From: an uncultured bacterium
GTDB lineage: Bacteria; Cyanobacteriota; Vampirovibrionia; Gastranaerophilales; Gastranaerophilaceae
Length of the DNA: 64,000 nt
Direction: 5' to 3'
Assembly (NCBI GenBank): GCA_949299935.1
Contig: CASGCE010000014.1
Location: 62,001-126,000, forward strand
The notes under the pieces were generated by a model. That model was not told the DNA's origin and searched no databases. It worked only from the letters and a program-made list of their open reading frames with translations. The stretch's first letter is position 1, and every line of letters starts with the position of its first letter. The translations under genes and the position numbers were made by a program. Below, one piece after another: positions 59,247-61,507 of this stretch.

Positions 59247-60515
59247 ATGCTTGATATTAAATTAATAAGAGAGAATCCAGATAAGATAAATGAGCTTTTA
59301 AAGAGGAGAAATCCGGAATTATCAATAGATGAAGTCATAGAAATAGATGTTGAGCGTCGAAGAATACAAACGCTGGCGGACGAATTGCGTGCAAAACGTA
59401 AATCTGAATCTTTAAAGATAGGTGAGTTAAAGAAAAAAGGTGAAAACACTGATGAAATTCAGGAGGATGTTCGTAGAATTGCAGATGACATAAAAATTCT
59501 GGAAGACAAACAATCCGCATTGGATGAAAGACAAAAGAATTTACTTCTTCATATCCCTAATATTCCCGACGAAACTACACCTATTGGTGTTTGTGAAGAT
59601 GATAACGTGGAAGTTTATAAATGGGGCGAACCAAGAAAGTTTGATTTTGAATATAAAGCACATTGGGATATTTGTGAAGAAAAAAAGCTGGTGGATTTTG
59701 AACGCGGTGTAAAGCTTTCTCAAAGCAGATTTACTTTGTATCGCGGATTAGGCGCAAAGCTTGAGCGTGCAATAATAAACTTCTTTCTTGATTATCATAC
59801 AAAAGAAAACGGTTATGAAGAAATATTACCGCCGTTTATGGCAAATGCGGCAACCATGACGGGAACCGGTCAGCTGCCAAAATTTGCAGAGGATATGTAC
59901 AAATGTGTTGACGAAGATTTATATTTAATCCCTACAGCAGAAGTTCCGGTTACAAATATATATGCCGGCGAAATATTGTCGCAGGAGCAGTTACCTATGT
60001 ATATGACGGCTTACACTCCGTGCTTTAGACGCGAAGCCGGTTCTGCTGGAAAAGATACAAGAGGCTTAATCAGAGTCCATCAGTTCAATAAGGTAGAACT
60101 GGTTAAACTTTGTACACCTCAGACAAGTAAAGATGAGCATGAAAAATTAACCGAAGATGCTGAAAAAATGCTTCAATTATTGGAGCTTCCTTACCGCCGA
60201 GAAGCTTTATGTACGGCTGATATCGGTTTCAGTGCCAATAAATGCTGGGATTTGGAAGTTTGGATGCCGTCTTACGGAACTTATAAAGAAATTTCAAGCT
60301 GTTCAAATTACGGTGATTATCAGGCAAGACGCGCGAATATCAGATACCGCGATAAAGCAACCGGCAAAACCCAGTTTGTTCATACAATTAACGGTTCCGG
60401 ACTTGCGGTCGGCAGAACTTTTGCCGCAATTGTTGAAAATTACCAGCAGGCGGACGGTTCAATTGTCATTCCGGAAGTCTTGCGCAAATATACAGGCTTT
60501 GATATAATCAAGTAG
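59247..60515 (+). CDS. serS: Seryl-tRNA synthetase
   Basis: 422 residues. N-terminal long coiled coil (~30-105), motif 2 [20 protein letters not shown], motif 3 [18 protein letters not shown], and the TAEVPVTN serine-site segment. Charges tRNA-Ser (and tRNA-Sec if present). AGAGG precedes the ATG. A micro-ORF with a G10 tract follows 19 bp after the stop. Confidence 0.97.
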
Positions 60516-60534
60516 TTGAGAGGAGGAAGTATAT

Positions 60535-60585
60535 ATGAAAAGATGTCTTAAGAATCTCGGGGGGGGGGACGACTCTCCTAGATAG
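60535..60585 (+). CDS. Micro-ORF with G10 tract (16 aa; possible phase-variable start of the prepilin)
   Basis: ATG at 60535 with an excellent RBS (AGGAGG, 8-nt spacing) directly after serS. It reads MKRCLKNLGGGDDSPR and stops. Codons 9-11 lie in ten consecutive G (60559-60568). With nine (or twelve) G the frame has no stop for 57 codons and joins the prepilin at 60737 in frame. So this may be a short peptide, a leader, or the phase-OFF state of a longer prepilin. An assembly error in the G-run is the main alternative. Confidence 0.45.
   Translation: MKRCLKNLGGGDDSPR
60559..60568 (+). repeat. Homopolymeric G10 tract
   Basis: Ten G in a row in an AT-rich genome, inside a translated micro-ORF. 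Such tracts are classic slipped-strand mispairing sites. Confidence 0.85.
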
Positions 60586-60701
60586 ACAGAACAAGGGTTT
60601 TGGCGGTATTGGTTTAGTAAAGTTACTAAGATACTATGGCACTAAGGCACTAAGCGGCAACAGTCGGATTAGTAAACCCGACCTACAAGTTACAAAAAGA
60701 A

Positions 60702-60730
60702 TTGACACAACCCCCGAAACAAATTATAAT
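60702..60730 (+). promoter_or_regulatory. Perfect consensus sigma-70 promoter of the prepilin
   Basis: TTGACA (60702-60707), 17-bp spacer, TATAAT (60725-60730), then 6 nt to ATG at 60737. All twelve consensus bases match. It predicts a strongly expressed leaderless mRNA. Confidence 0.8.
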
Positions 60731-60736
60731 TCTAAT

Positions 60737-61507
60737 ATGATGAATTATAAATCAGAGATGCTGAAACGAGTTCAGCATGACAGATCAGGGAGCGAAGCTC
60801 ACAGTAAACACAACCCTCACGCTACTAACGCAAAACGTGCCGCCTTCACTCTGGCCGAGGTGCTTATCACCCTTGCCATAATCGGCATTGTGGCAGCTTT
60901 GACAATACCCACTCTTATTTCAAACTACAGAAAAAATGTTGTTGTTACTCAGTTAAAAAAGGTTAATTCGACTTTGGCTCAGGCATTTATGACATCGCAA
61001 GCTGAAAACGGCACCGCAGGCTTTGAGCCGACTGCTCAGAATGTAAATAAATTCTATGAAACCTATTGGAAGCCTTATTTCAGAGTTGCGAAAGAATGCG
61101 ATACTTATGCAGATTGCGGATACAGTAAAAGTGTTCCTTTTACAAGACCAAACGGCGGATATGATTCTCTTCTCGTTGCAGGTACAGGCAGAAAAGCATT
61201 TTTGACTAATGACGGTATACTATATACTGTAGCCTTGTATACCATTAACGACGCCGATTTGTCAATTAATCCGAATTCTTCCACAATAATAGTTGATTTA
61301 AACGGTTCAAATGGCCCAAACAGATACGGACAAGACGTATTTATATTTAATTATAAATACGGTAAATCTGTATTTCCGAAAGGTTTTGATCTTACTGATG
61401 AAGAAGTTCGTGAAGATTGTTCAATGTCGGGCAGGGGACATACCTGTGCTGAAGCTGTCAAGCGTAACAACTGGGAAATTCCTGATTGGTACCCGATAAA
61501 ATTTTAA
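60737..61507 (+). CDS. Prepilin-like / type II secretion pseudopilin-like protein
   Basis: 256 residues. Prepilin signal RA|AFTLAEVLITLAIIGIVAA (about residues 35-55) with the Glu at +5 after Phe, then a globular C-terminal domain with cysteines (ECDTYADCGYS, EDCSMSGRGHTCAE). The leader before the cleavage site is unusually long (~35 residues) and includes a REP-like palindrome translated as MLKRVQHD. It is processed by prepilin peptidase and assembled in a pilus or secretion pseudopilus. Several such proteins without pilus operons are typical of this lineage (inference). Leaderless from a perfect promoter. Confidence 0.85.
   Translation: MMNYKSEMLKRVQHDRSGSEAHSKHNPHATNAKRAAFTLAEVLITLAIIGIVAALTIPTLISNYRKNVVVTQLKKVNSTLAQAFMTSQAENGTAGFEPTAQNVNKFYETYWKPYFRVAKECDTYADCGYSKSVPFTRPNGGYDSLLVAGTGRKAFLTNDGILYTVALYTINDADLSINPNSSTIIVDLNGSNGPNRYGQDVFIFNYKYGKSVFPKGFDLTDEEVREDCSMSGRGHTCAEAVKRNNWEIPDWYPIKF
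60758..60778. repeat. REP-like palindrome inside the prepilin leader
   Basis: ATGCTGAA-ACGAG-TTCAGCAT. Similar palindromes translated as MLxxVQHD are scattered in many bacterial genomes. Here it lies within codons 8-14. Confidence 0.6.

Follow-up and report, generated by a model that had tools for sequence, protein, structure and literature searches.

A poly-G tract ahead of a type IV prepilin gene as a probable slipped-strand phase switch, with about 47 such tracts in a Gastranaerophilales genome

The G10 tract ahead of a type IV prepilin gene in the window (the whole stretch of 64,000 nucleotides that was analysed) is probably a slipped-strand phase switch. The genome has about 47 such tracts, which together would control a large default-off pilin repertoire. 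This reading is based on the sequence of the window and on the architecture, reading frames, number, differences in length and naturally in-frame copies of the related loci, all of which are seen directly in the assemblies.

In the window, serS ends at 60515, just upstream of a micro-ORF whose ATG at 60535 is directly preceded by GAGAGGAGGAAG. The SD and ATG span 60521-60537 and form an excellent initiation signal. The initial annotation had pointed to a strong ribosome binding site at this ATG and to a frame that ends after 16 codons, and both are seen in the sequence, the last sense codon being followed by a stop codon at 60583-60585. The G10 tract begins 24 nt inside the micro-ORF and is the sole run of at least 8 G or C on either strand of the window; as many such runs were reached in 3 of 100 shuffles. 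The frame of the prepilin at this locus (L001) is, as had been claimed and as frame reading confirmed, stop-free back through the tract to 60539 (−20 from the tract start), and a tract of G9 or G12 does fuse ATG 60535 to the prepilin frame in one reading of about 323 aa, which at G9 is the protein MKRCLKNLGGGTTLLDRQNKGFGG...FTLAEVLITL. The further claim that about 57 open codons are improbable was too strong, since we estimate the chance at a few per cent at this base composition; the open leader is considered non-random because the same architecture is repeated at other loci of the genome. The RNA fold of 60515-60870 is unexceptional (z −1.38).

Table 1. Features of the window locus (positions in the window)
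Feature	Position	Strand	Remarks
SD AGGAGG of the micro-ORF	60521..60526	+	Read from sequence
Micro-ORF MKRCLKNLGGGDDSPR, then stop; predicted OFF product at G10	60535..60585	+	Read from sequence
G10 tract, followed by A	60559..60568	+	Syntenic counterpart has G9 and no A
Start-less open leader in the pilin frame, opening with the genome-wide block GGG-[AT]-T-x-L-x-R...KGF	60569..60736	+	Sequence
Internal promoter TTGACA-17-TATAAT, ATG 60737 at about +1	60702..60730	+	12/12 consensus match
Type IV prepilin-like protein, class III motif KRAA-FTLAEVLITLAIIGIVAALTIPTL	60737..61507	+	PF07963 3.1e-06; TIGR02532 over cut-off
21-nt palindromic REP-like insert ATGCTGAAACGAGTTCAGCAT in the pilin leader	60758..60778	+	Short sequences like it occur at other places in the genome

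The same design recurs throughout the host genome, a Candidatus Gastranaerophilales-like MAG of the gut 'Melainabacteria' (1.68 Mb in 37 contigs), which contains 51 G or C runs of at least 9, 48 of them exactly 9. About 46-47 tracts, that of the window included, are the same device ahead of different prepilins. A chance homopolymer is ruled out by the 51 copies in one genome and one context, and an isolated assembly error is unlikely because the frame design is common to dozens of loci and to independent MAGs. In the aligned flanks, the G class has the layout of SD, ATG, 6-9 variable codons, usually AAC, G9, CGACTCCTCTAAGTAGAAATAGCAAGGGTTTTGAC... and then RKGFTLAEV, and the second class has C9 after ATGAAAACGATT...GATAGTCG. 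A script that accepted an SD of at least 4 linked start, tract and prepilin at 46 loci, a few of which may be misassigned by its start-codon and motif heuristics. Exactly one additional base is needed at 43 of these loci; the window and L015 are joined by +2 bases or −1, and L002 (C1, G10) is the sole locus in frame. The tract length is uniform at 44 of the 46, and at every counted locus the pilin frame runs on through the tract without a stop. The distance from start to tract in the G class is 18, 21, 24 or 27 nt, always a multiple of 3, with different codons in between, so the reading phase is kept though the sequence is not. The tract at these loci is a hypermutable-type repeat (G10, G9 or C9) that lies within a reading frame from start to pilin; by the frame arithmetic of the 46 loci and the in-frame copies, a change in the number of repeat units would switch an intact ORF on or off, and variation in tract length is seen between paralogs and between species in the assemblies.

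The initial annotation had suggested that a change in the tract would vary the leader of a pilin-like protein. The frame switch itself is supported by about 46 paralogous loci and by homologous loci with lengths of 7-11, a few of them naturally in frame, but the effect goes beyond the N-terminal leader. No ATG, GTG or TTG lies between the tract and the pilin motif at 15 of the 46 loci, most of which have intact pilins of 210-256 aa, so the pilin at these loci must be reached via the tract. With at least one-third of the loci having no other start codon, the switch would be an ON/OFF switch for the whole pilin and not merely for an N-terminal extension. One further copy, L464 (C30:15000-16200), has G7 and is naturally in frame, giving one uninterrupted protein from the SD-ATG; it is perhaps locked ON. 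At another locus, L395, the start codon is mutated and the pilin also contains a stop. The genome has 66 class III prepilin-type motifs, and its ordinary prepilins mostly have a plain SD-ATG directly ahead of MKKGFTLAEV and no tract. The pilins share 64% of the N-terminal 40 aa and a median of 21% beyond, the pattern that a variable set of surface proteins would be predicted to show.

Related genomes carry the device with other lengths. The totals for 16 genomes of the genus are 51 G8, 530 G9 and 141 G10, which run opposite to the length-dependent fall expected by chance. Among 30 loci of G011, 23 need +1, 2 need +2 and 5 are in frame, with lengths of 9-11; in G005, 6 of 26 loci are in frame, with lengths of 8-11. 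G001 was dropped by the SD filter and read by hand, and in G014, G134 and G027 part of the tracts was read. The in-frame loci among those read number 2 of 17 in G134 (genus g41) and 3 of 8 in G027 (genus g13). In genus g41 the design is SD-ATG-x6-[YH]-G9-TAG-pilin and lacks internal starts, the ON length is 8 or 11, and a G8 copy is naturally in frame; G9 (63) and G10 or longer (56) are both common. In genus g13 the tracts are C8 or C9, and several C8 loci are in frame. The device is therefore present in related species and in two other genera with lengths of 7-11, differing ON lengths, and either G or C. At L206, the syntenic counterpart of the window locus in G011, which also has this serS upstream, the tract reads G9-CGAC; the window reads G10-ACGAC, and the tract is thus different in the two sister species. 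MutL was found in all 16 genomes of the genus, and missing mismatch repair is thereby ruled out as the cause. Two genomes of g41 (G090 and G192) also have many runs of G10 or longer away from prepilins, which may reflect other phase-variable families or another cause. L383, a family member, has a run of 24 G near a prepilin-like motif, possibly an assembly artefact.

We propose the following mechanism for the switch. The strong SD-ATG would initiate a peptide of 6-9 codons that runs into G9 or C9. At the common tract length the frame would stop just past the tract, giving an OFF state with a peptide of 11-20 aa, and one added base would bring the ribosome into the pilin frame; in other lineages the change would be a loss or a gain. 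The ON product would be the whole prepilin with a leader of about 40 aa or more, and this long leader would presumably be cut off by prepilin peptidase. As most loci are one base from ON, each cell would display a small, shifting subset of a large divergent pilin set; as the common length is nearly always an OFF length, the repertoire appears to be off by default and a single step from ON. That slippage takes place in living populations, that the ON form is exported and that it serves surface variation are inferences from the sequences.

The product of the window gene itself has the basic leader, the [GA]F-x3-E cleavage/methylation motif and the hydrophobic helix of a type IV prepilin (PF07963 and TIGR02532), and its predicted ON lengths are G9 and G12. 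However, an internal promoter, which the initial annotation had omitted, ends 6 nt 5′ of ATG 60737, and its hexamers are identical in the counterpart L206. The leader at 60569-60736, which had been taken for an in-frame leader, is indeed open but shows no codon-level conservation: its substitutions relative to L206 are 2/6/4 by codon position, with no third-position excess, as compared with 6/2/23 in the pilin body. No amino-acid selection was seen on the window leader. The conserved promoter at ATG 60737 together with the absence of codon conservation in the leader suggests that tract-independent expression is likely possible there, and the prepilin of the window may be made without the tract from the promoter that abuts its ATG. 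As at about half of the loci, internal promoter and ATG could yield a short-leader form, and the window pilin may thus exist in two forms, short-leader from the internal promoter and long-leader with the tract in frame. Alternatively, the tract may be of little importance for this gene, and its effect here is less certain than the genome-wide switch. The sigma-70 consensus whose −10 is followed about 7 nt later by an in-frame ATG, found at 60702-60742 of the window and after the tract (as TTGA-17-TATAAT-ATG, in frame in all cases) at 22 of the 46 loci, suggests leaderless pilin mRNAs. Prepilin leaders contain inserted palindromes of REP-like type as well as short repeats (CTAAGGCACTAAG, VQHD-type), namely at 60758-60778 of the window and in the long leaders of L212 and L202 (G011); the repeat-bearing leaders keep the pilin frame open and reach up to about 190 aa.

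Several observations count against a phase switch. The equal length of 44 of the 46 tracts in the host genome is tighter than fast unselected switching predicts, MutL is present, the leader codons between tract and pilin have no third-position signal, a promoter and an ATG follow the tract at about half of the loci, and g41 and G001 have loci with an intact, unfusable G9 micro-ORF ahead of a prepilin with its own start. The near-uniform length of 9 in the host genome is also the strongest point for programmed slippage, in which the DNA tract would be fixed at 9 and RNA polymerase slippage or −1 ribosomal frameshifting would yield a constant fraction of fused pilin from each gene. The +1 offset at 43 loci is the same in the G and C classes, some loci with other offsets have matching lengths (G8 in L132; G10 in L129, L200 and L223), all of these being one base short, and MutL is present. 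Within the host genome, tract and offset are indeed nearly invariant. However, over all genomes the lengths run from 7 to 11 and the offsets differ among loci and genera; lengths of 8-11 occur at the same design together with natural in-frame copies, and G9 and G10 or longer are about equally common in G134. In g41 and G001, moreover, G9 needs −1 or +2, and a single directed mechanism cannot suit all of these cases. We therefore consider programmed slippage rather unlikely. A programmed frameshift, which would have a fixed direction, appears to fit less well than replication slippage because the lengths vary at a fixed design, natural in-frame copies exist, both G and C tracts are used and the ON lengths are lineage specific.

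It could also be proposed that the micro-ORF is regulatory, with its GGG-ending peptide, or pairing of the SD with the sequence after the tract, controlling transcription or translation downstream while the pilins start internally. The SD AGGAGG of the window is partly complementary to CTCCT at 60575-60579, just 3′ of G10, a feature shared by most G-tract loci, and the complementarity of 5.25 exceeds the 3.80 of a letter-shuffle control. The internal promoters at 22 of the 46 loci, the leader without a codon signature and the unfusable micro-ORFs that are kept ahead of prepilins with their own start point in the same direction. Yet the 15 loci that offer no start codon from the tract to the pilin, whose pilins are mostly intact, are difficult to reconcile with internal starts, the pilin frame is open across the tract in all counted loci, and such regulation does not require the exact multiple-of-3 spacing from start to tract, which makes this explanation quite improbable. 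Pairing specific to each locus was rejected, since the complementarity, though real, is 5.25 against 5.03 with the partners shuffled and is confounded by relatedness. Unfusable G9 micro-ORFs ending in GGG-stop before prepilins with their own start were seen at L385, L389, L394 and L397 in G134, where a terminator-like hairpin (judged by eye) comes next, and at L231, L233-L235 and others in G001; they may be recombination relics, or else the micro-ORF could have an independent function. It is very unlikely that the tract block has no role in switching and simply marks the edge of a pilin cassette that has been duplicated or recombines. Although homology between paralogs begins sharply at the tract and the preceding codons differ, SD, start and reading phase are retained 5′ of this boundary in nearly all copies, and the same design occurs with different flanks in other genera.

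If slipped-strand switching operates at these loci, homopolymer phase variation would extend to type IV pilin-like subunits, and existing metagenome reads would allow a direct test of surface variation by pilins in this uncultured gut lineage. The switch would also explain why annotation would meet start-less or truncated prepilins there. This non-photosynthetic gut cyanobacterial lineage could well have one of the largest single-family contingency repertoires, in which dozens of divergent prepilins per genome, each off by default and a single G or C away from ON, would give clonal cells different pilin combinations, and part of the loci would add a second, short-leader form from an internal leaderless promoter. 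In the literature library searched, no paper linked phase variation with Gastranaerophilales.

Among known systems, Neisseria pilC, which encodes the pilus tip adhesin and is present in one or two copies, has a poly-G frame switch near its 5′ end. The present device resembles it in the near-5′ position of the switch and in belonging to a type IV pilus gene, but here the pilin-like subunits themselves carry it, in dozens of copies. The poly-G and poly-C loci of Campylobacter jejuni are mostly in glycan-modifying and other surface genes, whereas nearly all tracts here serve a single gene family, the prepilins. In scale, the 51 tracts of at least 9 in 1.68 Mb are above the 29 polyG/polyC loci of C. 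jejuni NCTC11168 (PMC4965091). The two genomes are alike in having many homopolymers of at least 7 in reading frames, ON/OFF frame switching and lengths mostly of 8-11 (PMC4965091). The closest mechanism appears to be the replication-slippage switch of sortase-dependent pili at the G tracts of bbr_0113 and bbr_1889 in Bifidobacterium breve UCC2003, in which a short upstream ORF and a pilin ORF that lacks initiation of its own are separated by the tract and have been shown to be joined by a change in its length (PMC9187656). Like the Gastranaerophilales device, it combines a well-initiated short ORF, a G tract and an initiation-less pilin ORF in a gut commensal. However, B. breve has two such loci per genome, with the tract between the Sec signal and a sortase-type pilin (PMC9187656), whereas the Gastranaerophilales device concerns type IV prepilins, comprises about 47 loci with G or C tracts, and often includes an internal promoter.
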